A stretch of 64,000 nucleotides of DNA from Pseudoalteromonas flavipulchra NCIMB 2033 = ATCC BAA-314. GTDB taxonomy: Bacteria > Pseudomonadota > Gammaproteobacteria > Enterobacterales > Alteromonadaceae. Positions 43,437 through 64,000 of this stretch are shown here, one piece after another. Location: contig JWIH01000006.1 of the NCBI GenBank assembly GCA_000814665.1, positions 29,681-93,680 of the forward strand, read 5' to 3'. Numbering within the stretch: the first letter of the stretch is position 1; each line of letters begins with the position of its first letter. The position numbers and the translations under genes are program-made. Under the pieces are notes generated by a model. That model was not told the DNA's origin, did not search any database, and saw nothing but the letters and a program-made list of their open reading frames with translations.

Positions 43437-45032
43437 CTATTCTATAAACTCAGAGTATTTACCTTCTAATAATTCTATAGAGACCCCTCTGTCTCTACAG
43501 TAATTAAGCATCATATTTGTTTGAATCAATTGCTCTGAGTTTTCTGTGTATTCAAGACCCATAAAATATCGAAACCAAGGTTCGATGCCTAACGCATAAA
43601 TAAACATTTGATTCGGTTTAAATATGTCTAACATCACTCTAACTTTGTCAAAATCAGAGCCATTTAAACGCCTTGACTCTTTGATTTCTTTGCTAACCGT
43701 AGAAGTTGTTAACGCACCATAGCACCAAGTGTAAGGTGCACCTACACACTCCATCCCTATAGCTAGCACATCTATATTGCCAACATATTCTTTAATTTGC
43801 CTGTAAAGCGCAGATTCTAAATTAACCGAATCAGCTCCAACAAAAATAGACTTCCCAGCTATTTCTACGAACCAAGCCGATTTACTTCGAATATTTAAAT
43901 CCCCATGTTCACCCAAAAATGGTAGTGCAATAATACGCCCGCCTACAAGCTCTATTTCTTCCATATCTTCAACGGCTACAACATTAAAATTTAAATTTTG
44001 TAGAATTAGTTTTAGTGACGGATCAGCTAAAGAGCCTCCGTTATTAGTTGGGACTATAACTTTACCGATCTTATGACGTAGCTGTAAAAGCGTTTCAAAC
44101 TGTACATGATCAGAATGATTATGAGTGATCAAAACATAATCTATATAATCTGGGAGTTCGCTAAAGCTGACCACATCGTTATGGTTGCTCTGTATTCTCG
44201 ACGGAATAATCGGATCGACTAGCACACTCACATCAGGCGACTCAATAAGAAGGCCAGCATGTCCCGTATATGTAAATTTAACCCCACTTGCCACTTTTTG
44301 GTGACGTTTACTAGGGGCCTCTTCCGTAAATAATTCTTCAACAGACAAACCACCTTTTAGTAATCTATCTTCGAATAAAGTTCTAATTTTCTCTTCAGTT
44401 AAAGGCGTTGTACGTGCTGAAAACACATCATCCCAAATATCGGAATCAAATGAAGCTTGCACTAATAGATTATTACTTTGTGGCAATATAGGAGTATTAA
44501 ATATGAATGGGCGTTTATAATCTTCATTTAGCAACCCAAACGAAATTGATTGCAAGTCTTTACGATAATATGGCCCCTTATAAAGCAACCCCTCAATTAG
44601 TCTAAAGGAGGGCTGATGATACAAATCCATATTTAGCTCAACATAGCCTTTTAAAGGTTCCGGAATTTGTTCATACAACGCTTCAATACATAGCCCAGTA
44701 TTGTGCTGCATAAGCATACTGTTCAGTTTATCAACAGCATTCGCTATCTCTTGCAGAAACGGTAATTGTTCATCCAGATTAGCCAATAATTGTTTGACTT
44801 CCTCAACTTGCTCAAGGCTACAATCAACGAACTCTCCACCAACTAACTCGCTATTTTGGCTAGCCATAATATGTATTTCGCTATTATTGACAAACGAGTT
44901 CATTAGCCTTTTATGTGTTTTACTCGCGTACATTGCAAATGTAACAGGGGGTAGCAAATAAGGCCAAGCATACCAACTATTTACCAGAGGATTGATAAAA
45001 ACATTTTCCTTTAAATAATATTGTTTAGTCAT
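43437..45032 (-). CDS. Two-domain metallo-beta-lactamase-fold enzyme of the NRPS cluster
   Basis: The product has 531 residues. The N-terminal 225 residues have no recognised domain. The C-terminal part (about 250-500) is a metallo-hydrolase fold with YTGHAGLLIES, THNHSDH as the HxHxDH motif (about residue 310), FLGEHGDL with a further His, and VGADSVN with Asp. The size and the domain order resemble CmlA-type diiron beta-hydroxylases that act on carrier-bound amino acids, but as I recall those have Glu for the middle His, so a hydrolase role is equally likely. It lies 27 bases after the luciferase-like gene. It is the last gene of the cluster before the IS66 scar. Confidence 0.65.
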   Translation of the reverse strand: MTKQYYLKENVFINPLVNSWYAWPYLLPPVTFAMYASKTHKRLMNSFVNNSEIHIMASQNSELVGGEFVDCSLEQVEEVKQLLANLDEQLPFLQEIANAVDKLNSMLMQHNTGLCIEALYEQIPEPLKGYVELNMDLYHQPSFRLIEGLLYKGPYYRKDLQSISFGLLNEDYKRPFIFNTPILPQSNNLLVQASFDSDIWDDVFSARTTPLTEEKIRTLFEDRLLKGGLSVEELFTEEAPSKRHQKVASGVKFTYTGHAGLLIESPDVSVLVDPIIPSRIQSNHNDVVSFSELPDYIDYVLITHNHSDHVQFETLLQLRHKIGKVIVPTNNGGSLADPSLKLILQNLNFNVVAVEDMEEIELVGGRIIALPFLGEHGDLNIRSKSAWFVEIAGKSIFVGADSVNLESALYRQIKEYVGNIDVLAIGMECVGAPYTWCYGALTTSTVSKEIKESRRLNGSDFDKVRVMLDIFKPNQMFIYALGIEPWFRYFMGLEYTENSEQLIQTNMMLNYCRDRGVSIELLEGKYSEFIE

Positions 45033-45059
45033 GTGTTTATACTCTATGCTCCAATGAAT

Positions 45060-46058
45060 TTATTGCTTTTCTTTATTATGCTTTTGCATGATTTTATGGA
45101 TTGCTTGGTATGAAAATAGTTGTTCTATTTCTTTTTCAACCAGTGTTAATACAACTAACTCATCACATTGGGTTTGCGTCAATAAGGCTTTTAGTTTTGG
45201 TTCCACGGTATCAGGGCTACCTATTAGCGAAGAATTCAAAATATGCGTTAGCATATGATTCTGAGATTCGCTGAAGTCATATAGTTTGGCTTCTTCCAGT
45301 GTAGGAAAACTTCCTTCATAACCGTCAGTTCTGCTTCGAATAAAAAAATTAATGGCCGGTAAAGCCAACTCCTGCGCTATATCGTCACTCTCAGCAACGA
45401 TAGCGTTGACAGCCAAAGAAACTCTAGGTTTATCGAAAAGCTTAGATGGGACAAAATTCGAACGATAATACTCTATCGCTTCCTGACAGTGAGTAGGGTT
45501 AACAAACATAGCGTAGGCCAATGGTAATCCATTTTGAGCTGCGTATTTAACTGCACCTCCCATACTTCCACATAATATGCAGTAACTGTCAAAAGAGTCT
45601 GGTACTGGAACTGCACTTAAAGAGTTCATGTCACTCAAATATGAAATAATTTCATCACTTTTTCTATCAAGCTCTTCGGGGGTGAAAGTTTCACCACCTA
45701 ACTCTTTAGTGACATCAGGCATTGCGCCTGGGGTACGTCCGATACCAAAATCAAATCGACCATTACCTATCGCATTTAACAACGCAATATTTTCGGCTAC
45801 TTTTAAAGGTGAGTAATGCCCAATCAGGATACCAGCAACCCCAACTCTAATTTTATTAGTTTGCGCCAATATATTCGCAGCTAATATCTCTGGAGATGCA
45901 CAACCAAAAGCTTTCATAGAGTGTTGTTCTGTTACCCAATATGCATCATAGCCAATTTCCTCTGCATAGCGGGCGCATGCTATGCTCCTTCTTACTGCAT
46001 CAACACCGCTTTGTGTGCCAAAAACAGGGGTTTGATCAAGAATTGTAAGTTTAGTCAT
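45060..46058 (-). CDS. Luciferase-like flavin-dependent monooxygenase
   Basis: The product has 332 residues and belongs to the LLM TIM-barrel class. It shows YAEEIGYDAYWVTEQHS, VGVAGILIGHYSPLKVAENIALLNAIGNGRFDFGIGR, and AYAMFVNPTHCQEAIEYYR, the MsnO8-like subgroup as I recall. These enzymes use FMNH2 and O2 to oxidise small molecules. In peptide gene clusters they hydroxylate or N-oxidise building blocks. A terminator hairpin lies only 20 bases upstream of the start, so this gene and the next may depend on read-through or a separate promoter. Confidence 0.85.
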   Translation of the reverse strand: MTKLTILDQTPVFGTQSGVDAVRRSIACARYAEEIGYDAYWVTEQHSMKAFGCASPEILAANILAQTNKIRVGVAGILIGHYSPLKVAENIALLNAIGNGRFDFGIGRTPGAMPDVTKELGGETFTPEELDRKSDEIISYLSDMNSLSAVPVPDSFDSYCILCGSMGGAVKYAAQNGLPLAYAMFVNPTHCQEAIEYYRSNFVPSKLFDKPRVSLAVNAIVAESDDIAQELALPAINFFIRSRTDGYEGSFPTLEEAKLYDFSESQNHMLTHILNSSLIGSPDTVEPKLKALLTQTQCDELVVLTLVEKEIEQLFSYQAIHKIMQKHNKEKQ

Positions 46059-46077: not shown

Positions 46078-46097
46078 ACAGCCCTATTTAGGGCTGT
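46078..46097 (-). terminator. Intrinsic terminator within the cluster
   Basis: A 9-bp stem (46078-46086 with 46089-46097) is followed on the minus strand by six T residues. It lies just after the second permease gene and before the luciferase-like gene. It would end or attenuate transcription from the NRPS and exporter operon. Confidence 0.8.
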
Positions 46098-47316: not shown

Positions 47317-48669
47317 CTATTCCATCGTAAGGTTACGACTAACCTTTACCTGACAGACTCTTAAAATCGGGGTAATACTCACTAGAATTGAACTAATGAT
47401 TGCAATGAAAATTCCAGTTCCAACCATGACAGCATCTAGCTTAAACAACAAATCTAAATCCGCGATGTCAGCATAAAAACCTACACTGTGAAACATTTTG
47501 AGCTTCATAAGGTGAAGGGATCCAAAACTTATAAATATACCTAATACACCACCAATAAACCCTACTACCGCAACTTCGCTAATATATTGGCCAATCAGTA
47601 CTTTTCGCTTCGCACCTAATGCACGTCTAATGCAAACTTCTCTAGTTTTGCTCATAAAATTAGCCAACATAATACCTACAGCGCTAAATATGCACGCGGC
47701 CATAAACATGCTGCCAATAATGAAATAGAACTGGTAATCAACATTCTTGTTATGTACATAGGCCATCACCTCATCGAGGCTTGTCAACAGATGACCACCT
47801 TCTCGCGGAAAACGACCTGAAGCACGCTGTCCATCTACATAATCATCTAGGACATTTCTAAATTCAGCTAAATCGTCTTTGCTGTCTAATAACGACCAAA
47901 CTGTAATCCAGCCACACTCTGAAGCCAAAAGCTCCTCAGTGCCACTCGATTGATAACGCATGCTAGTGTTATCCCAACATTCAAAGCGTGCATTACGTGA
48001 TAAATTTGCATCTAAAGCATATCGGTACGGTAGGTACGCATCATCAGAGAGGCCTTTCATGAAAGTACGATCATAAAATCGATATCTCACATGCCACTCA
48101 TCAATTACACCAACGATAGTTACGGCTTTATCATCTAAACGAATTTGCTTACCAACACTATTTTCACCGTTAAACAATAAATCGTTTCTCGCCTTTGTTA
48201 TAACTACAACTGGCGCACCACTTATTTCTTGCTCTTGGCTCCAAGCAGAGCCATATAAAAATGGAATATCCATTATTGAAAAAAAAGCTCTATTAGTTAC
48301 AAATGAAAAGCCTCTATATGGCATTACATTTTTATTCTCGACATTTACGAGCTGGTCGGTAAGCCAGCCAAATGTTATTTGAGATTTTGGGTAATCAATT
48401 TGACTGACATTAACCGTGTCAATGTAAGTCATATCAATCATCTTGTTAAAATTATCTACAGGTTCGCTTGCCAGATTCCTGCTATCTAGTTGAACTAAAA
48501 ATAGTCGATCAGATTTATGTGGTAAGTCTGTTTGGCTTCCTTGATAGACCATTGTGATTGCTGCAGTAAATATACCAATACCAATACCAATAGCCATTAC
48601 CATTAAAAGATTTAATACAGGGCGACGGCGAATCGAAAGCCACGCCATTTTCATATTATATTTAAGCAT
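47317..48669 (-). CDS. MacB/FtsX-type ABC permease, first subunit
   Basis: The product has 450 residues, with the same layout as the second permease: helix (about 18-40), long periplasmic domain with two Cys (about 50-310), then three helices with the RRALGAKRK loop. It overlaps the ATPase gene by 8 bases (start at 48669, stop of the ATPase at 48662), which suggests translational coupling and equal amounts. It is likely to form a heterodimer with the next permease. Confidence 0.85.
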   Translation of the reverse strand: MLKYNMKMAWLSIRRRPVLNLLMVMAIGIGIGIFTAAITMVYQGSQTDLPHKSDRLFLVQLDSRNLASEPVDNFNKMIDMTYIDTVNVSQIDYPKSQITFGWLTDQLVNVENKNVMPYRGFSFVTNRAFFSIMDIPFLYGSAWSQEQEISGAPVVVITKARNDLLFNGENSVGKQIRLDDKAVTIVGVIDEWHVRYRFYDRTFMKGLSDDAYLPYRYALDANLSRNARFECWDNTSMRYQSSGTEELLASECGWITVWSLLDSKDDLAEFRNVLDDYVDGQRASGRFPREGGHLLTSLDEVMAYVHNKNVDYQFYFIIGSMFMAACIFSAVGIMLANFMSKTREVCIRRALGAKRKVLIGQYISEVAVVGFIGGVLGIFISFGSLHLMKLKMFHSVGFYADIADLDLLFKLDAVMVGTGIFIAIISSILVSITPILRVCQVKVSRNLTME

Positions 48670-49381
48670 ATGACGCTTCCTGCTCTTTTAGAAGTTCTGT
48701 CTCAGTATCGCATTGTTTAACAACGCCATCCGTCACTTGAATTTGTCGCTGAGTTTTTGATGCTAATTCATCATCATGCGTTACCATAACAATGGTATTG
48801 CCCATTTCATTGATTTGATACAGTAAGTCCATAACTGATGCAGCCATTTCGCTATCTAGATTACCTGTTGGTTCATCCGCCAAAATGAGTGAAGGCTTGC
48901 CAGCTAAAGCTCTAGCGATAGCGACACGTTGACGTTGACCACCCGACAATTGATCTGGCCGATGCTCTTTACGGCCCCAAAGTCCAACTAAACGCAAAGA
49001 CTCTTCAACACGTTGTTTACGTTCCTGACTTGTCATGCCACGATATATAAGAGGTACTTCTATATTGTCATAAAGTGACAATTCAGCGATCAAATTAAAG
49101 TTTTGAAAAATGAAACCGATTTTTTCGTTTCTAAGTTCTGAAGCCTGATCATCATTCAGACTACTAGCTTCAACACCATCAAGTTTATAACTACCAGATT
49201 CATAATCTTCTAACAAACCTATTATATTTAATAGCGTTGATTTACCTGAACCAGATGGTCCCTTGATCGACACGAACTCACCTTTATTTATTGTTAAATC
49301 AACGTCTCTGAGTGCATTAGTCGCTACGGTCCCAGTCTTAAATACTTTGCGAATTTTTTTTATTTCTATTAAGTGTTCCAT
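48662..49381 (-). CDS. ABC transporter ATPase, LolD/MacB type
   Basis: The product has 239 residues. Walker A is GPSGSGKST, the signature LSGGQRQRVAIARA, Walker B LILADEPTGNLD, and the switch His is in MVTHDDELA. Such ATPases power extrusion from the periplasm across the outer membrane with a TolC-like channel, through an adaptor. No outer-membrane channel gene is in the window, so a housekeeping TolC may serve. It lies 17 bases after the adaptor gene. Confidence 0.93.
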   Translation of the reverse strand: MEHLIEIKKIRKVFKTGTVATNALRDVDLTINKGEFVSIKGPSGSGKSTLLNIIGLLEDYESGSYKLDGVEASSLNDDQASELRNEKIGFIFQNFNLIAELSLYDNIEVPLIYRGMTSQERKQRVEESLRLVGLWGRKEHRPDQLSGGQRQRVAIARALAGKPSLILADEPTGNLDSEMAASVMDLLYQINEMGNTIVMVTHDDELASKTQRQIQVTDGVVKQCDTETELLKEQEASYA

Positions 49382-49398: not shown

Positions 49399-50682
49399 TT
49401 ATTTATATAAATATATTTGTTTTGCTTGAGCAAACAGTTCGACATTTGAAGCAATTACCACTTCACCTTCTTTAAGACCGCTAATAACTTCAACCTCTCC
49501 AGCGTTTCTCATTCCAAAATTGACTTCACGTTTGACAGCGTGTTGATCCTTAACAACATAAACGTACTTTCCTCCGGATGAATCCAAATAAGCCCCAGAT
49601 TTAAGTTTTAAGACATCCCTCTTTGACTCAATAAAAATTTGTGCACTAACACGTTGATTTTGTCTGAGTCCAATAGAATTATCAGCAAAACGGAGTCTCC
49701 CTTTAACTTGGCCATCGACTACCTCTGGTGAAATTCCTACAAGCTGAGCATTTTTATATTCTCCATTCACAAATACCTTCGACTCCATCATATGTGTCAT
49801 TTCATCCGCATAGATTTCAGGTATGTAAACTTCAACTTCATAATTATCCAATTCGATTACTGTTAATAAAGGTTGATGATCTTCAACTTGATCAAAATCT
49901 TTAAAGCTTGTCACCCCCACCACACCGTTAATTGGGGAGTGGGAAACTAACTCCGTTAACTGGCGCTCAGCATCTTCTAAAATTAATTTTTGCCGTTGAA
50001 GCTCAAAATTGCGTGTATCCAGTTCAAATTTCTCTTCGTCCTTAACATTTCCATACTCTATAATTGAGTGTTTATGGTTAAGTAAAGCTACCTCGCGCTC
50101 TGCTACAGTTACCTCTAATGCTTCTTTGCTAATAATCTGAGCTTCAAAGGATTTTTCTGCACGTTCTTTTTGTTTTTCAGCCAAAACCAAGTTAACCTTC
50201 GCTAAATCAATCTCTTTTTGCGCATCTGACAGCGCTGATTTAAGTTCAAGCTCTTGGCGCTCAACTGCAAGCTCTAGTTCAGATAGTCTTGTACGTTCTT
50301 GGTTAACTAGATTGTTTAACTCAGGAGATTCTATTGTCGCTAGCACTTGCCCTTTACTAACAGCATCTCCAGCCTTTACCGAGTAGCGAACGATACCAGG
50401 AGAACCTGAATATATGGTTGGGCTATTGGCCGCTACAACGACACCTTGTACTGTGACTTGCCGTATGAAGTCACCTTTGCCCACTTCGATAAAGCTCAAT
50501 TGATCAACCGAAACTCCTTTCTCCCCAGACAGAATGGAATACACTCTGCCCCAAACGCTAAAAGCAACAACTAAACAAATGATTATGACAATTGCCCATT
50601 TCACTATTGGCCCACGGCTCTTTTTTGTTACGATAACTTCATCTTGTGCTGAAGTGTCTCTGATCCCAGATTCAATATTCAT
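49399..50682 (-). CDS. Periplasmic adaptor (HlyD/MacA-like membrane fusion protein)
   Basis: The product has 427 residues. A membrane anchor helix (about 27-47) is followed by a biotinyl-lipoyl-like barrel (around KAGDAVSKGQVLATIESPE), a long alpha-hairpin of about 100 residues rich in Glu, Lys and Leu, the second lipoyl half (LVSHSPINGVVGVTSFKDFDQVEDHQPLLTV) and a beta-barrel. Length and order are typical of MacA-type adaptors that join the pump to an outer-membrane channel. It lies 12 bases after the second oxygenase gene. Confidence 0.9.
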   Translation of the reverse strand: MNIESGIRDTSAQDEVIVTKKSRGPIVKWAIVIIICLVVAFSVWGRVYSILSGEKGVSVDQLSFIEVGKGDFIRQVTVQGVVVAANSPTIYSGSPGIVRYSVKAGDAVSKGQVLATIESPELNNLVNQERTRLSELELAVERQELELKSALSDAQKEIDLAKVNLVLAEKQKERAEKSFEAQIISKEALEVTVAEREVALLNHKHSIIEYGNVKDEEKFELDTRNFELQRQKLILEDAERQLTELVSHSPINGVVGVTSFKDFDQVEDHQPLLTVIELDNYEVEVYIPEIYADEMTHMMESKVFVNGEYKNAQLVGISPEVVDGQVKGRLRFADNSIGLRQNQRVSAQIFIESKRDVLKLKSGAYLDSSGGKYVYVVKDQHAVKREVNFGMRNAGEVEVISGLKEGEVVIASNVELFAQAKQIYLYK

Positions 50683-50694: not shown

Positions 50695-51723
50695 CTAGAT
50701 TTCTAATACCATCATTTCTTTATCTTGCACATCGCTCCACAATGTTGGTTCACTCAACCCTGTTAGCACTCTTCGGTTTCCTTGAAATGGTTCTCGACCA
50801 TGACTTGAAAGCATGTTGTCTACCATTAACACATCAGAAGACTCCCACTTAAAACTCACTTTTTCCGCTAAATAAGCTTGTTGCAATTGAATAATTTCAG
50901 AGTGAGAGAAAGGAGTTCCGTCTCCAAAGCAAGTCTGGTTTGGCACATTTTTCATGTCGAAAATAGCACTCAAAGAAGATTGCACTTGCTCTGACAAAGT
51001 TTTGAAATTGAAAAATGTGCAGTGATTAAACCAGCACCTTTCTTTTGTAAAAGGATGGATAGCAATAACTGCTCGTTTTTGCCTCGTACGCAGCTCTATA
51101 TCTCCGTCCGCCCATTCAAACTGAATGTCGTTTTGTGTACAGTAACTTTCAACCTCATTACGATCTCTGGTTTGATATGCTTCTTGCCATGTTAAGCCAA
51201 AAAGCTCAGAAAAATTCCTTTGATACTGGTATCCTTTCTCTACGAGTTTTAATTTTAACGGCTCTGGAATTCTCTCAAGTATTTTTCGGGTATCAGCTAA
51301 CGGTGTTTCGCCACCAACTGCTGCAGGCACTTCGCAATAAAAGTAAATATTACGAGAAAAGTTAAGATTGTAAGACTGCTCATTGTGCAAAAATATAGAT
51401 TGATCTGCTCGTTGGCTTGTCGACGTATAAATATTACCCTCCACCTGTTCTCTTGGAGATGAGCGTTCATGATATGATAACGCGCCTGCTGAAGTTAGCC
51501 TAATATAGCGTTCAAAATCCTTATGGCTTTTTACTACGAAGCCTCGACATAATACTGCACCATACTTGAATACACATTGCTTAATCACTTCACTATTATT
51601 TGATGCCCATTCTATTAACGAAATACTATTAGAGGTATCAGTTATGACTAAAGGAAGTGGTTTGTTCTGATCAAAAAAGGAAGTCGTTACGCTCCCCTGG
51701 TTTAACAATGCTAAGTAATCCAT
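50695..51723 (-). CDS. TauD/SyrP-like Fe(II)/2-oxoglutarate oxygenase, copy 2
   Basis: The product has 342 residues and forms a double-stranded beta-helix oxygenase. The iron facial triad is HNE (about residues 113-115) and the distal His in SSHGR (about 308), and the 2-oxoglutarate Arg is likely in GNRRVLTG. Because the second ligand is Glu and not Ala or Gly, it should be a hydroxylase or desaturase and not a halogenase. SyrP-like members beta-hydroxylate amino acids tethered to carrier domains, and AmbC/AmbD-like members modify a peptide intermediate. It is a paralogue of the gene at 54261. It lies 12 bases after the SufS-like gene. Confidence 0.85.
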   Translation of the reverse strand: MDYLALLNQGSVTTSFFDQNKPLPLVITDTSNSISLIEWASNNSEVIKQCVFKYGAVLCRGFVVKSHKDFERYIRLTSAGALSYHERSSPREQVEGNIYTSTSQRADQSIFLHNEQSYNLNFSRNIYFYCEVPAAVGGETPLADTRKILERIPEPLKLKLVEKGYQYQRNFSELFGLTWQEAYQTRDRNEVESYCTQNDIQFEWADGDIELRTRQKRAVIAIHPFTKERCWFNHCTFFNFKTLSEQVQSSLSAIFDMKNVPNQTCFGDGTPFSHSEIIQLQQAYLAEKVSFKWESSDVLMVDNMLSSHGREPFQGNRRVLTGLSEPTLWSDVQDKEMMVLEI

Positions 51724-51735: not shown

Positions 51736-52983
51736 CTACGCTGAAACCGAACTTATATTCAGCATGCTCGTGCAGATTTCATCTAATGCAGAAAAGAAAG
51801 TTTTAATGTCTTCCTCACTGTTGTAGATATACCCTGATACACGAAGTACCTGCCCATCAGTTTGGCTTTGAGTATATGGTTGAGCACATAAGTGACCATT
51901 TCTCACAATGATTCCATACGAGTCACTTAAGTATCTAGATACGTCATCTAAGTCATCCAATCCTCTGATAGCAAAACTTAGCACCGCACCTCTATCAAGG
52001 CTCTCATCATCGCAAATGACCTTTATATAGTCCCTTTTTTTAGCCTCTTTTAATATAAAGTGGCCTAAACGTCTGTCATGCTCACTTATTACGTCAATTC
52101 CAACTCTATTTAAATAGTCAATTGACGCACCGAAACCAATCACTCCGGCTATATTTGGTGTCCCTGCTTCAAACCTGTGCGGTATTTTACGTAATCTAAA
52201 AGAATCATACTCAACCCAATCAACCATCCCCCCACCTAAAGTTTGAGGAACTAATGATTCAAGCATGTCTGCTTTACCATACAGCACACCGACACCGTTT
52301 GGACCCAACATCTTGTGCGCTGAGAAGCACATAAAATCAATGTTGCCACTTTTCACTGACACTTTTCGATGAGGTATAGACTGAGCAGCATCAACCAGGA
52401 CAATGGCGCCTACTGATTTAGCCAAAGCAGCCATGCGCTCTAAGTCAATATATATACCAGTCACATTCGAGCAATGAGTCAAAGCTACAACTTTTGGTTT
52501 TTGCTGTAAAAGCCTTTCATACTGTTCAATGTCAATAGCGCCATTGGGTAAGCTCACTATAATTTCCGTCTTAGCTTTACTTGACCAAGGAAGTAAATTT
52601 GAATGGTGTGCGTTCTCACTTACTAACACTAAATCATCTTTTTGCAGCTCTAGACCAGAAGCAACCATATTAATTGCTTCTGTTGTATTGCTAACAAAGA
52701 CGACCTCGTTTCCATGACATTGAATCAGATTAGCGACGTTATAACGAACTTGCTCGTATTGATTAGATACTTCTTCCATCGCGAAATGCTTGCCTCTATG
52801 TACGTTACAGGCAACTCCACTGTAATATCGACTTATGGCGTCAATCATTACTTTGGGTTTTAATGAGGTTGCTGCACTATCTAAATACAAGACAGGTTCA
52901 CCATCTATCTCCGCATTCAATCCAGGAAATTCATTTGTTATGTTATTCATGTTGGTTTCTTTATTAATCACAAGGCTACCCAT
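51736..52983 (-). CDS. Class V aminotransferase/SufS-like PLP enzyme
   Basis: The product has 415 residues if started at the ATG at 52983, which overlaps the PaaK-like gene; the ATG at 52950 is an alternative that fits SufS N termini better. The N terminus EFPGLNAEIDGEPVLYLDSAA is SufS-like. The PLP Lys is in SAHKMLGPNGVGVL. The loop RNGHLCAQPY holds the Cys used by SufS-type desulfurases. It is therefore predicted to act on cysteine or a related thiol-containing residue, either as a sulfur donor for tailoring or as a beta-lyase. An aminotransferase role is less likely but possible. Confidence 0.8.
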   Translation of the reverse strand: MGSLVINKETNMNNITNEFPGLNAEIDGEPVLYLDSAATSLKPKVMIDAISRYYSGVACNVHRGKHFAMEEVSNQYEQVRYNVANLIQCHGNEVVFVSNTTEAINMVASGLELQKDDLVLVSENAHHSNLLPWSSKAKTEIIVSLPNGAIDIEQYERLLQQKPKVVALTHCSNVTGIYIDLERMAALAKSVGAIVLVDAAQSIPHRKVSVKSGNIDFMCFSAHKMLGPNGVGVLYGKADMLESLVPQTLGGGMVDWVEYDSFRLRKIPHRFEAGTPNIAGVIGFGASIDYLNRVGIDVISEHDRRLGHFILKEAKKRDYIKVICDDESLDRGAVLSFAIRGLDDLDDVSRYLSDSYGIIVRNGHLCAQPYTQSQTDGQVLRVSGYIYNSEEDIKTFFSALDEICTSMLNISSVSA

Positions 52984-55244: not shown

Positions 55245-58200
55245 TTACCCTTTCACTTTGGTTAAATCTGACTTCAACGGCTCGATTAGCGAGTCAACGT
55301 AAGGTCTTTCAATCATATTACTATGGTTGCCAGCGACTCTCATTACTGAAATGTCACCCGAAGTAATTTGATCCCAATTGTAATATTGGTTTAACTCATA
55401 CCTGTCTGCTTCTTCTTGATCTAATACCTTATATAGATGAAGGTTCAAACTTGATTGTTTCATCTTTAGCTTATCCATAGCATGTGGGAAAGTAACTAAG
55501 AAGCGTATGTAATTCTCCACTTGTTCAATACTTAACCCTTTATGCGCTAATCCCTGTGTTTTAGCAGCAAGAGCTAACTGTTTAATCGCTTGCTCAGTAG
55601 AAAGTTGCGTAACTTCATTCCAATCAATTTCCAATGTATTGCCAAAGAAGCTCTGTACTTTTGCAAATTCATTCTTATCTTCTGAAGTCTGGCTTTCTGT
55701 AGGAGGTTGATCTAGCAGCCCAACCAAACCGATTTCATCCCCTAACTTATCCAACTGAGTTGCCATCTCATAAGCTAGTCTTGCTCCGGCTGACCACCCT
55801 AACAAATGATAAGGACCTTTAGGCTGTACACGCTTAATTAGCTGGATATATTGCTCCACTAAGCTTTCTATCTTCTCTGTATGATAATCAACGAATATAT
55901 CAGGTGCTTGTAAGCCAAAGACTTTGCATGTGTCCGCCAAGCTAGCAGCCATTGACTCATAATGGTTTGCATAGCCACCAATCGGATGAATGCAGAATAA
56001 GTTTGTGTCTGCATTAGATTGATTAAGTTCAATTAAGATATTATCTTGCCCAGCCGCAATTTGAGCATTCAAGCCATGGTTTGTGTTCAGTTGATCGTTT
56101 CTTAATAATGATTGCAACGCTTGACTAACATTTTCAGATAGAGTCTGAGCTTTCTCTAAACTGTATTCAACGTTGCTATAGTTAAATTGAATATGTAATA
56201 CACCATCTGCAATAAAGGACAAGATATTAAACTGATAAGGAGTGACACGATTAAGATCATACTGAGGACCCACCGCCTCAGGTGCTACTTCTATTTCTTG
56301 TTCACTAGAAGAAGAACTCAAACTTTCACTCAAGAAGTTAAATACAACATTTGAACTGCGGCCCTTTAATTGGTCACGCATTTGGAAGTCATTAGCGAAA
56401 TACTTAAATAAACCAAAACCTATTCCACTGTTTGGTATGTTTGAGCGCTGAGCTCTTACAATGTTAAATACTTGCTCGGGACTTTGCTGCGCTACCTTTA
56501 CACTTAAAGGGTATACAGAGGTAAACCACCCAGCTGTTTCAGATACATCAGGAGCACCATCCAAATTAATACGGCCGTGGCTTTCTAAATCAATATGCTG
56601 GGTATCTTGTCCACTCCATTTCGCCAGCCCATGCATTAAAGAACTCAACAACATGTCTTCTATTGCTGACTTGTCCATAGAAGCGATTGCCGGAAAAAGC
56701 TCCTTTGAAAGTTGCAGTTCAACAAATTCAAAGTTGTTTGGATCAGGCTCTGTGATAAATGCAGATTCATCAGGCAATTTGTCTTCAACAGGGATATAAT
56801 TATTAAGCCAATATTCTCTATCCTCTGCGAATTTTCCTTCATCCATTGCTGTAGTAAGATATTCAGCCCACTGTTGATACGATGCGGCTTTACTTTTAAG
56901 AACTATTTCTTCACCTTTTTCCAAACTTTTTAAGGCTTGACTTATGTCTAACATCATCACCCATCTAGAAACTGCATCAGTGACTAAGTGATGGAAGCAA
57001 AATAGCACACGACCTGAGTTCTCTTGACCCCTATTGAAGTAATAGACCTTAAACAATATACCAGCTTCAATATCTAGACTTTTTTGTACTTCAGACCCTC
57101 TAGACCACATGAATTCAGCAAGCTCGGTATCAGAAATATGGCTAATATCTTCTTCTATACATTGTTGCTTTAACTTAAAGTTATTCGATGGGTTGTATTT
57201 GCTATACCATTTGTTGTCATCTTTAAAGAACTTTAGTCGTAATACATCGTGCCGCTCAACAATTGCTTGGACAGCTTTTTCTAAGTGGGAGAAGTTAAAG
57301 TTTCCTGATACTTTCAACAAAGAGCTTTGATTGTAGTGGTTCACGTGATCAGAATCGATATCGAAAAAACGATGCTGAATAGGCAATAGCTTTTGAAACC
57401 CTTCACTTTCTGACTGTTTAGATGTTTCTTGATGATCTGTTTCAATCATCTTAGCCAACCCTCTAATTGACTGCCCTATTAATAACTGTCTAACACTAAA
57501 GACTATGCCACTACGCTTAGCCATTGCCATGATTTGCATTGACATAATCGAGTCACCACCAATACTGAAAAAGTTATCGGTGAGGCCAATGCTTTCATGG
57601 CCAAGAACTTCACACCATATTTTCAGCAATGTCTTTTCTACTTCCGACTGAGGATCAGTTTCCAGATCAGACTTCTTCGCGTCGAGAGGGTTTGGCAAAC
57701 TCGCCTTGTTTACCTTACCACCTGGTGTTTTGGGCAATTCACTAAGCAATATGATATAGCTCGGTAGCATGTATTCAGGTATTAACTTCGAAAGACTTCT
57801 ACGAATTTCCTCTGTCTGTTCACTCTCTTCCCCCTGCTCATCCGCGTTTAATTGACAATACGCTACATGATGGTTGATGCCAGCAGAGTCACTAAATACA
57901 GATAAGTATGACTCTCTGATTGAGGGAACTTGTGTAAGTGCCTCTCTGACCTCGTCTAGTTCAATTCTAAAACCACGAATTTTAACTTGATCATCGGTAC
58001 GACCTATAAATTGCATCGTGTCATCGTGATTTAGAACGACTCTATCACCCGTACGGTAGAAGCGACTAGGTTCATGAAGCAGATTATATTCTGCATACGC
58101 CAATTCGTTGTACTCTGGGTTGTTTATGTAACCTATGCTGACACTCGCGCCAGAGACACAAAGTTGACCAGGAATACCTTTTGGTAAAATCGCCCCAAAC

Positions 58201-60824
58201 GGAGAAATAACGATCGGGTAGTTTCCTTCAACAACCTTACCAATCACATTATTTGCCACATTTTCTTCAATTAGCCCATATGAGATATTGACAGATAATT
58301 CAGTCGGCCCATATGCATTAATTGCTTTCTTATCTACTCTACTAATATATTCAAGCGTATTTGAGTGGATTTTTTTAGAAATGGTATCGCCACTTAAAAT
58401 AAGGTGATAACGATCCTGTTCTTCAAACTCTTCAATCATTAGCTCAACTAACTGAGGAATACCGTTGAATACTTGAATGTCTCCTTCGCGCATAAGACGA
58501 AGTAAAGAAGCCGTATCTTGATACTGACTCTCGGCAGCGATAGTGACAGCCCCACCCAAAGAAAGTGCGGCCATACCTTTTAAAGACGCATCAAATGTAT
58601 AACTAACATGCCATAACCAAGAACTGTGAGAAGGCAGGTCTAAATCTGCCATTTGACTAGCAAATACGTCACGGAAATGGCAAATATTACTGTGAGTAAC
58701 CTCTACGCCTTTTGGTTTGCCACGTGAGCCAGATGTAAAAATCACGTATGCTGTTTCACCGAACTCAGCAGTTGCGTTAATGTTTGTATTTGGTAACGAC
58801 ACTAAACGATCCAAAGTGTCAGGGTGGTCAATAGCAATGGCTTCAGGTCCCTCTAAACCAGGTAACATACATAAATTGTTATGGACAATTAAATGCTTAA
58901 CATTGGCCTCAACAAAAATATTCTGAAATCGTTGGCTTGGATAGAAGCGATCAACAGGCACATACGCTGCACCAATTTTCATAATTGCCAAAATACTTAT
59001 AGGAATATCTTCACATCGCTCTAAGCACAAAGCAACATTATCACCTGGCTTAACCCCTTTTTCTCTTAATAGGTGCGCAAACTGATTAGCTTTACCATTT
59101 AACTCTTCATAACTTAATGTTCGATCTAAAAACCTTATTGCGAGTGCGTGAGGTGATTTCTCAACTTGTCGCTCGAATAACTCATTAAACCTAGTTTTTG
59201 ATTTCGAAATAGAATGCACACTTTGAAGATCTTCAGCAATCAATCCTAACTCTTGAGAGCTCAACAACTGTAATTCACTTAGCTTTTGTTCAAACCCATT
59301 ACTCATTGAGATAAGCAAATTACATATATGGTCTCCCAAAGGCGCAAGTACATCTTCAGAAAATCGATTCCGTGGGTAGGTAATACGAACTGACAAGGTG
59401 TCTGACATCGTTACCATAAACGTAAGGCCGTAATTTGTATATTCATCTGTTTGTACAGAATCTAATGTAAGCGAGTTTGCAGCTTGTACATCAACCCCCT
59501 TTTGATCTAACTCTGCAAAATTTGAAAATATGACTAACGAATCAAATAGAGATGCTCCATTACTCACTTCGCTATTTTTCTGGATTTCATTGAGTGGACA
59601 ATAACTATAAGCGTTTGAGTTTGAGTACGAAGCACTTAAGTTTTCGAGTACATCTAACACAGATGTCAGATTGTTAAAGTTCACTCTAACAGGCAATGAG
59701 TTAATGAATAAGCCAACGATTGACTCGACACCTTTAACTTCTGCTGGCCTACCTGAAACCGTCGCGCCAAAAACGATATCTTTTTCACCGCTGTAACTCG
59801 CTAACAATAACGACCAAGCAGCTTGAAACACAGTATTGATTGTTACGCCATATTGATTCGCCAACGAGGCAAGCTTTTTCGTAGTGTCTCTATCTACATT
59901 AAAATAATAACGACCAACAGAATCTTCATTTTCAGCCAATTCAATCTGCTTATCTACAACGAGTGGTGTGGGGTAACTAAAACCTTGTAGGTAATCTTGC
60001 CAATATGTTTTCGCTTTCGTTTGGTCTTGCTCAACAAACCATTCAATATAGCTCTGATAAGGCGGTGTATCGGTAAGTTGAAGAGGTGAACCAATAGTTA
60101 AATGATCATAACATTGCATCACTTCTTTAAAGACAATACTTTGGCACCAACCATCTAACAAGGAGTGGTGTCTTGTCCAAACCAAATAAAATTCATCGTC
60201 TCTCCCCATGACTTTTGTCAATCGCATGAGAGGAGCTACGGCAAAATCGAAACCTTTATTTTTGTCTGCTTTTTTAAACTCATTCAATTTTCTCTGAAAT
60301 TCATCTCTATCTAAATCTTTCCACTCTAGTGTGTTAAAAGGAATATTGGCTTTTTCCAGAACAACTTGATTAATAGTATGAGTTTCAAATCCTACAAAAC
60401 AAGTTCGAAAAGTATCATGCCGCTGCGCTACCATTTGCCAAGCTTTTTGAAATTGTATGTCGTCCAAATTACCAAACAACTTATATACAGTTTGGCTGGT
60501 ATAAGACTCACCAGTTCCATCTTCAAACCCATGGAACAACATCCCCTGCTGCATGGGTACTGCTGGATAAATATTTTCTACTTCGGTGTAATTCTTCTCT
60601 ATTGCGTCTAGTTGTTCTTGAGTTAAATTTGCGAATGGAAAATCACTTGGTGTAAACCCCTTACTTTGGCTGAAAATAGCGAGTAAGTCTTCCTTATAAG
60701 TCCTTAGTTCAGAAAGTATTGTGTTATCTAAGTTACCATCGACATCAAATACTTTAAGTTTACCTTCTAGAACTTGAAGTTTGATATTCCGTTCATGTAA
60801 AGTTTGCAACAAATTGTTTAACAT
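55245..60824 (-). CDS. Terminal NRPS: docking-C-A-T-E-TE
   Basis: The product has 1859 residues. It has a TubC-like N-terminal docking domain (1 to about 55); C domain (about 65-510; HHSLLDG near 223; the entry motif PAVPMQQGMLFHG fits a DCL type that accepts an upstream D-residue); A domain (about 530-1040; TSGSRGKPKG, NAYGPTE, and the final Lys in GGKVNK); carrier domain (GGDSI near 1088); E domain (HHLVTDAVS near 1283, ESHGR and GWFTSVYP); and TE (about 1600-1859; GWSAG near 1675). The A-domain lining residues, aligned by eye to GrsA, read D-A-K-N-I-S-A-V-N and match no code I recall. The start shares one base with the upstream NRPS stop (TAATG). The TE should release the peptide by hydrolysis or cyclisation. 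Confidence 0.93.
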   Translation of the reverse strand: MLNNLLQTLHERNIKLQVLEGKLKVFDVDGNLDNTILSELRTYKEDLLAIFSQSKGFTPSDFPFANLTQEQLDAIEKNYTEVENIYPAVPMQQGMLFHGFEDGTGESYTSQTVYKLFGNLDDIQFQKAWQMVAQRHDTFRTCFVGFETHTINQVVLEKANIPFNTLEWKDLDRDEFQRKLNEFKKADKNKGFDFAVAPLMRLTKVMGRDDEFYLVWTRHHSLLDGWCQSIVFKEVMQCYDHLTIGSPLQLTDTPPYQSYIEWFVEQDQTKAKTYWQDYLQGFSYPTPLVVDKQIELAENEDSVGRYYFNVDRDTTKKLASLANQYGVTINTVFQAAWSLLLASYSGEKDIVFGATVSGRPAEVKGVESIVGLFINSLPVRVNFNNLTSVLDVLENLSASYSNSNAYSYCPLNEIQKNSEVSNGASLFDSLVIFSNFAELDQKGVDVQAANSLTLDSVQTDEYTNYGLTFMVTMSDTLSVRITYPRNRFSEDVLAPLGDHICNLLISMSNGFEQKLSELQLLSSQELGLIAEDLQSVHSISKSKTRFNELFERQVEKSPHALAIRFLDRTLSYEELNGKANQFAHLLREKGVKPGDNVALCLERCEDIPISILAIMKIGAAYVPVDRFYPSQRFQNIFVEANVKHLIVHNNLCMLPGLEGPEAIAIDHPDTLDRLVSLPNTNINATAEFGETAYVIFTSGSRGKPKGVEVTHSNICHFRDVFASQMADLDLPSHSSWLWHVSYTFDASLKGMAALSLGGAVTIAAESQYQDTASLLRLMREGDIQVFNGIPQLVELMIEEFEEQDRYHLILSGDTISKKIHSNTLEYISRVDKKAINAYGPTELSVNISYGLIEENVANNVIGKVVEGNYPIVISPFGAILPKGIPGQLCVSGASVSIGYINNPEYNELAYAEYNLLHEPSRFYRTGDRVVLNHDDTMQFIGRTDDQVKIRGFRIELDEVREALTQVPSIRESYLSVFSDSAGINHHVAYCQLNADEQGEESEQTEEIRRSLSKLIPEYMLPSYIILLSELPKTPGGKVNKASLPNPLDAKKSDLETDPQSEVEKTLLKIWCEVLGHESIGLTDNFFSIGGDSIMSMQIMAMAKRSGIVFSVRQLLIGQSIRGLAKMIETDHQETSKQSESEGFQKLLPIQHRFFDIDSDHVNHYNQSSLLKVSGNFNFSHLEKAVQAIVERHDVLRLKFFKDDNKWYSKYNPSNNFKLKQQCIEEDISHISDTELAEFMWSRGSEVQKSLDIEAGILFKVYYFNRGQENSGRVLFCFHHLVTDAVSRWVMMLDISQALKSLEKGEEIVLKSKAASYQQWAEYLTTAMDEGKFAEDREYWLNNYIPVEDKLPDESAFITEPDPNNFEFVELQLSKELFPAIASMDKSAIEDMLLSSLMHGLAKWSGQDTQHIDLESHGRINLDGAPDVSETAGWFTSVYPLSVKVAQQSPEQVFNIVRAQRSNIPNSGIGFGLFKYFANDFQMRDQLKGRSSNVVFNFLSESLSSSSSEQEIEVAPEAVGPQYDLNRVTPYQFNILSFIADGVLHIQFNYSNVEYSLEKAQTLSENVSQALQSLLRNDQLNTNHGLNAQIAAGQDNILIELNQSNADTNLFCIHPIGGYANHYESMAASLADTCKVFGLQAPDIFVDYHTEKIESLVEQYIQLIKRVQPKGPYHLLGWSAGARLAYEMATQLDKLGDEIGLVGLLDQPPTESQTSEDKNEFAKVQSFFGNTLEIDWNEVTQLSTEQAIKQLALAAKTQGLAHKGLSIEQVENYIRFLVTFPHAMDKLKMKQSSLNLHLYKVLDQEEADRYELNQYYNWDQITSGDISVMRVAGNHSNMIERPYVDSLIEPLKSDLTKVKG

Positions 60825-63800
60825 TATATTTCTAATCCTATAATCTCTTCTAATTTTATTAAGGAAGCTGAGTCGCTACTTTCTAACTCTAATAAATCTA
60901 GGTTTTTAATTTTATTCTTAAGATCGTTGCGTTGATTTACTTCTTCGCAAAAATCAACAACTTCTAATAACGCTTGCTGAAAATAAGTCAAAAGTAATTC
61001 CACTTTGTTCGCATCCTCATCAGATGAAAATACGATTGCAGTTACCTCGAACTGTTTATTTACAATACGAGCATTAAAAATAACGCTTCTACTCGTGTCA
61101 TGCTCTAATGTCTCTTGGCCTCTTGACTCTGGTGCTATAGAGAATGAACTATCCAGATCCGATAACACGTTATCGAACTGCCCCAAATAGTTAAATACAA
61201 TAGATCTATCAACTTGGCCTTGTAATTTTGCTCTGACATCTTCTTCTGGTGAAAAATAAGATAACGCCCCAAAACTTAATCCCTTGTTAGGAACGTTGCG
61301 AATCGTTTCTTTTGTATACTTGACCCAGCTTTCAACATTATCCAATTCGGAATTAATCAATATCAAAGGGTAGAAAGTCGTAAACCAGCCTATTGTTTCT
61401 GATACATCCAAATCTTTCGATAACATTTCACGCCCATGACCTTCCAAATTGATCTGAACTGCATCCAAGCCTAAACCTTGATTACAAGCTCTAAATAATG
61501 AGGCTAGCATCAATTCTTCTGGACGAGTACGAAAGGCATCATTGGCAGATCCCAAAAGTCGAGAGGTAATCAACGGCTTTAAGGTAAATGTGCTTTGACG
61601 AACTTGTTTTGTATAACTATTTTCAATATATATCCGATTACTTTTTGAAACGCAAGCGTATTCAGATAATTTATCGAGCCAATATTCCTGGTCACTTGAG
61701 AACCCTTTTTCTTTTGTAAAATGCTTTATAAATTGAGACCAGTCTTTATAGGAGCTTGTCTTCGCCGCTAGTTTCGGTGCACTGCCATTCTTTATTTGTT
61801 CGACTGCCACTTGGAGGTCTCTAAGTAAAATCCTCCAAGACACACCGTCTATCACCAAATGATGCGCTAGGATTAGTAACTTCTGCTTACCATCAGGTAA
61901 TTTGATACAAACCACCTTAAATAATGGTCCTTGCTGTAAATCCAAAGACCGTTGCATCTGCTCACATGTCGATACGATGTATTCATACGAGGACAGCTCT
62001 ATCATTTCTACCGAATTACAAACCATTGCAGAATCTAGCTCTTGATAGAAGTTTGTCCCAGACTCAAGGTCTTTAAAACGCATTCTAAAAACATCATGCC
62101 TTGTTAGTATCGCTTCAACTATCTGATGTAGATCACTTTCAGACATGCCATTTTTAACATTCAATAATAATGACTGATTAAAATGATGAGGGTTTTTACG
62201 GTTTTCATCAAAAAACATCCTCTGTACAGGTAATAATGGAGTGCGCCCTTCAACGGGTGCTTGCTCTAATAATGCGATACTCTCAGTGTGTTGCAGTATT
62301 AATGACAACTGCGCAACGGTTGGGGCATTAAAGATGTCTTTTACCTGACAAACATAACCGGCCTGACGCAGACGTGATACCAACTGTATACATACAATAG
62401 AGTCCCCACCCAAGCGGAAGAAGTTATCCTCTATGCCCACCTGCGCTAACCCCAACACATCTTGCCACACCTGACACAATGCTTGCTCTGTCTCATTACG
62501 AGGCGCCACAAACTCTTCGCTGTCTATCTCCGGGGCCGGTAATGCGCGTCTATCTAACTTGCCGTTTAACGTCAGCGGTAGTGTGCTTAACGTGACTATG
62601 TGGCTCGGTATCATATACTCTGGCAGTGTTGCGCCTAACTGCGACACTAAGTGTGTCGAGTCACACGTCTGCCCTTCTTGCATCACCACATACGCCACTA
62701 AATACACACTACCATCATCTCTGGCTCGGTCTATCACAGCTGCTTGACGTACTGATGTCTCCTCACACAACACCGCTTCTATCTCACCTAACTCTATGCG
62801 ATAGCCGCGGATCTTTACTTGGAAATCGTTACGCCCTAAATACTCTATATTGCCATCCTCTCGACGACGTACCACATCCCCCGTTTTATATAACCGGGTA
62901 TAGCCCAATGCCCTTGCCGCATCATCTACAAACGGGTTGTCAATAAAGCGCTCCGCCGTGAGCTCTGCTCGATTTAAATACCCTCGAGCCAGTCCTGCGC
63001 CCCCTATGTACAATTCACCTTGCGTACCATTGGGCATTGGCTGTAATTGTTTGTTAAGGATATAGAGTTGCGTGTTATCTATCGCTTTGCCTATCGGTAC
63101 ATGGCTCGTAAACGCTTCTCGTGTGTCAAAATAACTCACATCCACTGACGCTTCCGTTGGGCCATATAAATTGTGTAATACCGCATCATGCTGCCCTAAA
63201 CCATAAAAAGCATCCACATGACTCACCTGCAGTGCCTCTCCACTACTAAAAACTTGCTTAACACTGCGCGGTAATACCTTACCTTCACTCGACATCTCTG
63301 CACAAAATGCCGCTAACATCGAAGGCACGAAGTGTAATGTTGTCACTCCTGCCTCTTCTATCAATGTATGCAAGGCTTCTGGCTGTCTATGCACATCAGG
63401 TGCTGCCATCACCAACGAGGCGCCTGCCCAGTGCGCCCAAAATAACTCCCATACTGATACATCAAAAATGTAAGGCGTCTTTTGTAATACTTTGTCTTCA
63501 CTACTTAACGGGTAGCGTTTTTGCATCCAGTTGATACGATTAACTATTGCACGATGCGCTATCATTACCCCTTTCGGCTGCCCTGTCGTTCCTGAGGTAT
63601 AAATAACATATGCTAGATCTTCTGGCCCTGCTTTCAACGGCAGTGCTGTATCGCTGGCCACAGTATGCTTCATCACTTGTTCAACGGCTAACCATTCTGC
63701 TGCGCACTCTTGCTCTGCTAATCCGCCTTGCAAGGCTTCTGCACCTGCCGCATGCGTTAAGACAAACGGACACCCCGTATCTTTTAGGATAAAGGCCGTT

Positions 63801-64000
63801 CGCTCTGCTGGAAATTCTGGTGAAATTGGCACATATGCCCCCCCTGCTTTCAGCACAGCTAACACCGCAACCATCATTTCGACGCTTCTGTCCATATACA
63901 GACCAATCAAGGTATTCGCTGGCATCGCTTGCCTATGGCGCTGCTGATACCTATCACGCAACTCTCGTGCAAGCTGATTCGCCTGCGCATCAAGTTGCTG
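60824..64000 (-). CDS. NRPS, partial at window edge: A-T-E, serine-type A domain
   Basis: The frame is open to the edge, so the start and any earlier domains are missing; the visible part has 1058 residues. The A domain begins at the A1 region (ANQLARE), continues with YTSGTTGQPKG and NLYGPTEA, and ends with NGKLDRRALP. Its lining residues aligned to GrsA read D-V-W-H-F-S-L-V-D plus the conserved Lys, the serine code of EntF as I recall. A carrier domain with GGDSI follows (about residue 530), then an E domain (HHLVIDGVSWRILL, EGHGRE, GWFTTFYP, IVFNYLG). It should hand D-Ser to the next C domain. The A domain is visibly richer in G+C than the E domain. Confidence 0.93.
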   Translation of the reverse strand, partial: QQLDAQANQLARELRDRYQQRHRQAMPANTLIGLYMDRSVEMMVAVLAVLKAGGAYVPISPEFPAERTAFILKDTGCPFVLTHAAGAEALQGGLAEQECAAEWLAVEQVMKHTVASDTALPLKAGPEDLAYVIYTSGTTGQPKGVMIAHRAIVNRINWMQKRYPLSSEDKVLQKTPYIFDVSVWELFWAHWAGASLVMAAPDVHRQPEALHTLIEEAGVTTLHFVPSMLAAFCAEMSSEGKVLPRSVKQVFSSGEALQVSHVDAFYGLGQHDAVLHNLYGPTEASVDVSYFDTREAFTSHVPIGKAIDNTQLYILNKQLQPMPNGTQGELYIGGAGLARGYLNRAELTAERFIDNPFVDDAARALGYTRLYKTGDVVRRREDGNIEYLGRNDFQVKIRGYRIELGEIEAVLCEETSVRQAAVIDRARDDGSVYLVAYVVMQEGQTCDSTHLVSQLGATLPEYMIPSHIVTLSTLPLTLNGKLDRRALPAPEIDSEEFVAPRNETEQALCQVWQDVLGLAQVGIEDNFFRLGGDSIVCIQLVSRLRQAGYVCQVKDIFNAPTVAQLSLILQHTESIALLEQAPVEGRTPLLPVQRMFFDENRKNPHHFNQSLLLNVKNGMSESDLHQIVEAILTRHDVFRMRFKDLESGTNFYQELDSAMVCNSVEMIELSSYEYIVSTCEQMQRSLDLQQGPLFKVVCIKLPDGKQKLLILAHHLVIDGVSWRILLRDLQVAVEQIKNGSAPKLAAKTSSYKDWSQFIKHFTKEKGFSSDQEYWLDKLSEYACVSKSNRIYIENSYTKQVRQSTFTLKPLITSRLLGSANDAFRTRPEELMLASLFRACNQGLGLDAVQINLEGHGREMLSKDLDVSETIGWFTTFYPLILINSELDNVESWVKYTKETIRNVPNKGLSFGALSYFSPEEDVRAKLQGQVDRSIVFNYLGQFDNVLSDLDSSFSIAPESRGQETLEHDTSRSVIFNARIVNKQFEVTAIVFSSDEDANKVELLLTYFQQALLEVVDFCEEVNQRNDLKNKIKNLDLLELESSDSASLIKLEEIIGLEI

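Follow-up and report, generated by a model that had tools for sequence, protein, structure and literature searches.

Gene content of the locus

The window analysed here, the whole stretch of 64,000 nucleotides from Pseudoalteromonas flavipulchra NCIMB 2033, corresponds to bases 29681-93680 of contig C22 (93,680 bases), and window position 64000 is the end of that contig. Its right-hand part carries a nonribosomal peptide synthetase (NRPS) cluster in which a PaaK-like adenylating enzyme and a SufS-like cysteine desulfurase are encoded side by side (Table 1). The cluster is of an ordinary kind (NRPS lipopeptide) and carries one uncommon component, this PaaK-like/SufS-like pair, which is the main subject of the analysis. 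We read the window as carrying about the last third of an NRPS cluster of ~58 kb, with the remainder at the right end of another contig, C17.

Gene calling and family searches found every gene named in the original prediction, an earlier note on this DNA, on the minus strand and where it had been placed. The genes from 46105 to 64000 are operon-like, as had been proposed, with neighbors that overlap or are at most 19 bases apart (intergenic gaps of 9, -8, 17, 12, 12, -8, 19, 12, and -1 bases). The NRPS gene at the contig end is truncated, because window position 64000 is the end of C22. The Pfam matches of the window proteins comprise NRPS domains (the TubC_N docking match in the last NRPS is weak), two TauD proteins, a class-V aminotransferase fold, an HlyD-type adaptor, an ABC ATPase, and two FtsX/MacB_PCD permeases. 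The two predicted 2-oxoglutarate (2-OG) oxygenases, the PaaK-like enzyme, the SufS-like enzyme with its catalytic Cys, and the split MacB permease were all confirmed. The D-Ser predicted for the product agrees with an adenylation (A) domain of serine-type code, which is followed by an epimerase (E) domain.

Both TauD-family proteins carry an HNE sequence (the HxE motif) and a distal HGR. The protein at 43437-45032 had been taken for a metallo-fold enzyme; it is not a plain metallo-hydrolase and belongs to the CmlA-type diiron monooxygenases. It matches CmlA_N (PF18456) at 260.6 bits, with a cut-off of 25, and its best relatives in the PDB are 8a90 (‘Non-heme diiron monooxygenase’, E=1.8e-112), the enzyme FrsH, and CmlA itself (4jo0, E=2.6e-99). 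The likeness to these two enzymes covers the full length, the CmlA_N domain, and the HxHxDH core motif of the metallo-beta-lactamase fold, present as HNHSDH at 304. Relatives of this protein are found in other clusters with the pair. The window alone encodes three putative beta-hydroxylases, two of the TauD and one of the CmlA type.

The two permease open reading frames correspond to the N-terminal and C-terminal halves of ADOP, the duplicated-permease model of NCBIfam, and in the related clusters G124, G137, G095, G231, and G025 one protein of 798-832 aa serves as the permease. Owing to their divergence, the two halves do not align end to end by BLAST. The luciferase-like protein matches the MsnO8 family (NCBIfam) at 263.9 bits, with a cut-off of 166.95. 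As a terminator-like hairpin precedes it, the luciferase-like and CmlA-type genes may form a separate transcription unit; the scan of the region gave 15 such sites versus 9.4 (standard deviation 3.1) in shuffled sequences, which makes a single site no more than a hint.

Table 1. Features of the NRPS cluster in the window (window coordinates).
Feature	Position	Strand	Remark
Stretch of 1,697 bp common to the C22 end and the C17 right end, 2 mismatches, inside the Ser module	62304..64000	-	probable contig overlap
NRPS gene, 3' part, A (Ser-type code)-T-E	60824..64000	-	5' end lost at contig end
Last NRPS gene, TubC docking-C-A (code DAKNISAVNK)-T-E-TE	55245..60824	-	
TauD-family 2-OG oxygenase, HxE at 106	54261..55232	-	putative beta-hydroxylase
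PaaK-like adenylating enzyme, APNCSDVEC block	52976..54241	-	8-base overlap with next gene
SufS-like cysteine desulfurase, catalytic Cys366, PLP Lys224	51736..52983	-	
Second TauD-family 2-OG oxygenase, HxE at 113	50695..51723	-	
Periplasmic adaptor (MFP) of the exporter	49399..50682	-	
ABC ATPase, MacB/DarD kind	48662..49381	-	
Split MacB/ADOP-type permease, N-terminal half, 450 aa	47317..48669	-	
Split MacB/ADOP-type permease, C-terminal half, 400 aa	46105..47307	-	
Terminator-like hairpin on both strands, symmetrical, between last permease and luciferase-like genes	46078..46097		pattern match only
MsnO8-family luciferase-like monooxygenase	45060..46058	-	pathway membership uncertain
CmlA-type diiron beta-hydroxylase	43437..45032	-	

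The PaaK-like/SufS-like pair

The SufS-like protein has the motif GHLCAQP with its cysteine and the motif SAHK. Cys366 (persulfide) and Lys224 (pyridoxal phosphate, PLP) are kept in 22 of 22 sequences, as are Lys411, Arg295, and Asp300 of the PaaK-like protein; the roles of these residues are assumed here by analogy with related enzymes. The PaaK-like protein (421 aa) gives no Pfam match at 0.001, while PaaK models and structures are matched. Its AlphaFold2 model has a mean pLDDT of 88.1 and shows the PaaK fold by Foldseek (2y27, E=2.5e-26). In the APNCSDVEC block, Cys129 and Cys134 are found in all nine PaaK-like sequences collected by whole-protein similarity, and both are absent from the 12 distant relatives (those of 37 weaker matches having loci). 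The cluster SufS is an additional paralogue, as another SufS of the genome reaches 490.4 bits. The clade of pair-associated SufS proteins is monophyletic with respect to four other class-V enzymes of the same genome, at a support of only 0.686 and with thin sampling, and is given no weight here.

The pair is rare and its two members keep together. In a family-wide sample PaaK-like matches with E < 1e-100 occur in 8 of 295 genomes (9 loci, our own included), and the next group comprises the 37 weaker matches, from E about 1e-27 and 25% identity. The class-wide sample of 369 genomes contains the enzyme once, in this genome, and the SufS-like partner is present in 5 of the 108 genomes of the genus at E up to 1e-130. 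A collection of 84,980 species genomes was scanned with two short patterns from the profile of nine PaaK-like proteins, giving 21 loci in gammaproteobacteria, three Corallococcus, an Actinomadura, and a metagenome-assembled genome of the Pseudonocardiales. Five of these coincide with the family-wide loci, leaving 25 distinct ones. At 24 of these the SufS-like gene directly adjoins the PaaK-like gene, and at the remaining one (L148/G095) a single TauD gene separates the two. NRPS-type genes lie near the pair at all 25 loci, in gammaproteobacteria, myxobacteria, and actinobacteria alike (for L154, L155, and L156 the evidence is the FAAL start of one gene only, within the stretch covered, and for L150 the NRPSs are visible only in the longer stretch, G231). 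The distance matrices of the PaaK-like and SufS-like proteins (22 each) agree with r=0.96, a value reached in 0 of 2,000 permutations.

Known thioacid cassettes use a CoA-transferase and a sulfur-carrier protein. Among the 12 cluster genes of the window and 9 of C17 that were scanned, no type III CoA-transferase family of Pfam was found, and no sulfur-carrier protein, a result that applies to the cluster genes only. The kept pairing and motifs, the precedent of MnmA and YcfA/YcfC (see below), and the missing CoA-transferase and carrier lead us to propose a two-enzyme thiocarboxylate-forming cassette, working by adenylation and persulfide transfer. In this scheme the PaaK-like enzyme would adenylate a carboxylate, and the SufS-like desulfurase would pass a cysteine-derived persulfide to it, perhaps via its two invariant cysteines, as in MnmA. 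Adenylate and persulfide would then give the thiocarboxylate; the sulfur transfer is deduced from the pairing and the kept motifs. A further step, taken tentatively and with more doubt than confidence, is to see in the pair a self-contained thiocarboxylate synthase with its own relay cysteines, needing neither a CoA-transferase nor a sulfur-carrier protein, which would mark unrecognised thiocarboxylate (or derived) peptides in gammaproteobacteria, myxobacteria, and actinobacteria.

Several observations weigh against the proposed thiocarboxylate chemistry. With respect to TIGR01979 the SufS-like protein scores 412 bits, below the curated cut-off of 475.1, and it is thus desulfurase-like and outside the subfamily; the PaaK-like protein scores 86.3 bits with TIGR02155, below the cut-off of 646.3, and has a PaaK-like fold without being PaaK. 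The structural model is uncertain at the P-loop (80-86) and at 127-132, which would fit mobile active-site loops and is no proof that the APNCSDVEC block sits in the active site. In the 21 pattern-scan loci the NCSDVEC block is invariant by construction, being the scan pattern, and the agreement of the distance matrices may come in part from shared inheritance of neighboring genes. The pair accompanies very different NRPSs, hydroxylases, and sulfotransferases, with no common residue that hints at the product; none of the 25 loci was linked to a known product, and no carboxylate substrate was identified. Acyl transfer to CoA by the PaaK-like enzyme would, moreover, be indistinguishable from adenylation followed by sulfur transfer at the level of sequence.

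In an alternative explanation, the PaaK-like protein provides a building block as a common type of acyl- or aryl-CoA (or carrier-protein) ligase, the SufS-like protein performs some other PLP reaction on that block, and no thiocarboxylate is made. The match of the fold to PaaK1 and other ligases agrees with it, as does the position of the pair between dihydroxyphenylglycine (Dpg)-type genes in Pseudoalteromonas luteoviolacea H33-S. However, the desulfurase Cys, with which a PLP enzyme put to another use could dispense, is kept in 22 of 22 SufS-like proteins, and the 412 bits with the SufS model compare with 78.3 for EgtE and 40.9 for PvdN. We regard this explanation as rather unlikely, if a serious one.

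Our first guess was another one, namely that the product of the pair is a sulfur-containing amino acid for loading by the last module, whose A domain has the code DAKNISAVNK. This code is identical in the cluster under study and five other pair clusters, even though the whole A domains there are 29-35% identical to that of the window, and it is found also at L143, L146, and L151. For a wider comparison the 120-aa pocket segment was searched in the 295-genome sample, and codes were read from 30 of the 31 listed matches, those having loci. The guess did not hold, as the code occurs without the pair: it is present in G267 and, with one unread position, in G073, both without a PaaK-like match, and the variants DAKNISAINK, DAKNIGAINK, DAKNMGLINK, DAKNLGCINK, and DAKNISVINK stand at loci away from the pair in several genomes. 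Conversely, in the stretch read the pair is present without the code at G061, G082, and the second of the G231 loci. A role of the pair in supplying this A domain is therefore improbable.

The settings of the pair are diverse. The clusters of G061, G082, and G231 are FAAL-started, with a His-type code and a sulfotransferase; the loci of Thalassolituus and Corallococcus carry free-standing A, T-C or C, and KAS III-like proteins, and that of P. luteoviolacea H33-S carries Dpg-type and PALP/OCD-type genes. At the latter locus (L152, 5576-15496) genes for a type III polyketide synthase and for enoyl-CoA-hydratase-like, PALP, and ornithine-cyclodeaminase-like proteins flank the pair, looking like a supply of dihydroxyphenylglycine and diaminopropionate in a marine bacterium. 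Free-standing sulfotransferase-like genes are seen in G061, G082, G231, and the C17 part of our own cluster. In the 4,373-aa NRPS of G095 (Thalassomonas sp. RHCl1, L106/L107), a T and a C domain are twice separated by a stretch of ~370 aa that follows a module with the code DIPRVGHVGK; in both stretches a sulfotransferase-like P-loop, PRSGST, can be recognised by eye.

The probable joint between C22 and C17

The contig ends were compared all against all at 90% identity (500 bases on the left and about 2 kb on the right for most contigs, with longer ends for the NRPS ends and three small contigs taken whole). The right end of C22 matches only the right end of C17, which in turn matches only that of C22 and itself. 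A stretch of 748 bases within the shared region is present in three copies, in C22, at the C17 end, and in module 7 of C17. Five sites vary among them; the copy at the C17 end agrees with C22 at the first three and with C17 module 7 at the last two. At the C17 end, 949 of 949 bases are identical to C22, followed by 697 of 697 identical to the module-7 copy. A contig end that has run on into the wrong copy of a repeat shows such a chimeric pattern, and most simply C17 and C22 have a single serine module as their overlap. An additional serine module between the contigs (a tandem repeat with a 4,524-bp unit and a 2,130-bp gap) is possible and is disfavored by the chimeric C17 end.

The arrangement is also seen in relatives. 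In G124, G137, and G095, three of eight relative loci, the genes for the acylase, exporter, NRPSs with thioesterase (TE), PaaK, SufS, adaptor, ATPase, and permease are contiguous and in this order, and in G095 TauD genes stand around PaaK as in the window. The C17 acylase is 46, 40, and 48% identical to the counterparts in these three, respectively, and the exporter 47, 44, and 52%. The other five loci differ: in G061, G082, and the second G231 locus the acylase and exporter directly adjoin the pair at the opposite end of the NRPSs, in G025 there is such an exporter without the acylase, and the first G231 locus has neither within the stretch read. By coordinate arithmetic, with the overlap assumed, the joined cluster, with the sulfotransferase gene of C17 at one end and the CmlA-type gene at the other, is ~58 kb long and contains nine modules.

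The two contigs could instead hold separate clusters that share a recently copied module, given that the 748-bp part of the repeat is present a second time inside C17 and that several ends of this assembly are broken at NRPS repeats. The chimeric C17 end, the contiguous synteny in three relatives, and the fact that no further contig end matches C17 or C22 make this very improbable, and we retain a single cluster. Contigs C1, C6, C7, C11, C15, C21, and C24 of the genome also carry NRPS stretches that are broken at repeats, with ends overlapping one another, and further clusters of the genome are therefore cut as well. As the contig ends overlap, the 64 matches to Pfam Condensation in the genome are an upper bound. 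In general, clusters cut at contig ends yield wrong product sizes.

Assembly line and predicted product

Toward its right end C17 encodes a sulfotransferase, a GntB-like hydroxylase, an acylase, an exporter, and NRPSs of 2,095, 2,146, 2,650, and at least 2,877 aa, the last one open at the contig end. The hydroxylase, of the fatty-acid-desaturase fold, scores 275.6 bits, under the cut-off of 380. The acylase is of the penicillin-amidase type (PF01804, 681.5 bits), and the exporter is a 568-aa cyclic-peptide export ABC transporter that passes the TIGR01194 cut-off of 286.2 with 361.7 bits. Between the first two NRPSs lies a 1,413-aa protein (C17 405534-409775; L131:13535-17776), which aligns three times over to proteins of 473-481 aa found at the same place, after the first NRPS, in G124, G137, and G095; it has a weak Pfam match to GSP_synth (preATP-grasp) below the cut-off and no NCBIfam match.

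With the fourth gene read across both contigs, the order of condensation (C), A, thiolation (T), and E domains is C-A-T-C-A-T, C-A-T-C-A-T, C-A-T-C-A-T-E, C-A-T-E-C-A-T-E, and C-A-T-E-TE, a modular NRPS of nine C-A-T modules, if the contigs overlap, with the TE in the last one. The window holds the last two of about nine modules and the others are on C17, so the peptide is not the ‘short’ one that the original prediction had expected. The A-domain codes were extracted by alignment; by the usual code positions and tables, the modules presumably load Ala, Gly, Thr, an unclear residue, Cys, an Asp-like residue, Tyr, Ser, and a Glu-like residue. Epimerase domains in the last four modules would give the last four residues the D configuration; in the last one the motif reads HHLVTDAVSR and thus deviates from the common pattern HHxxxDxxSW. 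In G124, G137, and G095 the third A domain of the first NRPS has the code IRWVFSLSDK, in which the customary Asp235 is missing. This points to a substrate that lacks an alpha-amino group, such as a beta-amino or hydroxy acid; the code is similar to those for beta-alanine.

On C17 the first NRPS opens with a C domain, a candidate acyl-accepting starter, and the peptide is thus probably N-acylated. By analogy with pyoverdine and with the scheme proposed for corramycin, the gene set suggests a pro-peptide that carries an N-acyl group and matures in the periplasm before it leaves through the MacAB-like exporter. Transfer of the acyl-peptide into the periplasm would fall to the TIGR01194-type exporter, removal of its acyl chain to the penicillin-amidase-type acylase, and release of the deacylated peptide to the MacAB-like exporter. 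Residues would be oxidised by the two TauD, the CmlA-type, and the GntB-like (C17) hydroxylases.

The same genes might belong to a siderophore or chalkophore system with pyoverdine-like export, in which hydroxylated acids would bind the metal together with a thiol and, possibly, a thiocarboxylate. The acylase/exporter logic resembling that of pyoverdine, the HxE TauD enzymes, and the Cys- and Asp-type A-domain codes are in line with this. Against these stands the lack of a receptor gene among the cluster genes scanned (a genome-wide search for metal-regulated sites was not made), and Pfam does not class a 763-aa protein encoded nearby as a TonB receptor. A metal-binding product is possible, if doubtful. 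The best joint explanation of the locus, towards which we lean by a little, is a ~58-kb cluster over C17 and C22 that combines N-acyl pro-peptide maturation, hydroxylation, and thiocarboxylate formation by the PaaK-like/SufS-like pair.

Elsewhere in the window, positions 34150-35892 encode a 580-aa protein with an LA2681-like HEPN domain (135.3 bits), possibly related to defence, and positions 21459-28601 a 2,380-aa protein with NHL and cadherin/Ig-like repeats, probably at the surface or secreted.

Comparison with known systems

The gene set had been said to match no named pathway, and indeed no description of the PaaK-like/SufS-like pair, the DAKNISAVNK code, or the cluster was found in the open-access literature, judged mostly by the listed entries. 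For the maturation of the peptide we take the PvdE-PvdQ-PvdRT route of pyoverdine as a model, with a cyclic-peptide-type ABC exporter, an Ntn acylase, and final export of the MacAB-like kind. The C17 acylase differs from PvdQ (71.7 bits with the model NF051460, not reaching the cut-off of 950), and PvdN belongs to another PLP branch than the SufS-like protein (40.9 bits). The wider cluster suggests that a pyoverdine-like scheme of pro-peptide maturation exists in marine bacteria. For corramycin of Corallococcus (PMC10099666), which has an N-acylated peptide precursor, deacylation and transport to the periplasm have been hypothesised, and both would apply to our cluster too. As far as the available part of that description goes, the corramycin cluster has a FAAL start and no PaaK/SufS pair is mentioned; the comparison is by description only. 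The accessible text on the flavipulchrin cluster (PMC12819058), a TauD-containing lipopeptide cluster, gives no sign of the pair, and in that of the Entotheonella paper (PMC12858407) a desulfurase appears as a reagent for iron-sulfur reconstitution. The accessible text on turnercyclamycin (PMC10714751) makes no mention of a ‘biosynthetic gene’.

Few known natural products are thiocarboxylic acids, a class that is argued to be under-represented in the part of PMC6006322 that was available. If the proposed function of the pair is true, searching genomes for this compact two-gene marker would turn up NRPS clusters for such compounds, and the two enzymes could offer a simple means of making thioacids. 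The known thioacid cassette, as described in the same part of that paper, consists of an acyl-CoA synthetase, a CoA-transferase, and sulfur-carrier proteins; it is represented by PtmA3/PtmU4 of thioplatensimycin, and homologues are encoded in the clusters for thioquinolobactin, PDTC, and yatakemycin (PMC6006322). Like PtmA3/PtmU4, as far as described there, our cluster would encode a carboxylate-activating enzyme beside a dedicated sulfur-transfer step, and the PaaK-like fold and kept residues are consistent with an activating enzyme of the ANL kind, as in that cassette. The partner is different, a SufS-like desulfurase here versus a type III CoA-transferase there, with no carrier protein seen in the cluster. 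The activating enzyme is different as well, being PaaK-like with two additional invariant Cys, and the setting is a modular NRPS.

For the sulfur transfer, the nearest precedents are found in the parts of PMC6225789 that were available. The tRNA thiolase MnmA works on an adenylated substrate by means of a persulfide and two cysteines; the 6-thioguanine enzymes YcfA/YcfC are an ATPase with a desulfurase-like partner (PMC6225789). Our pair would share with them the ATP-dependent activation of the substrate and the delivery of sulfur from a PLP enzyme. MnmA and YcfA, as described there, are PP-loop ATPases acting on nucleobases or nucleosides, whereas in the pair studied here an enzyme of the ANL fold would act on a carboxylate.

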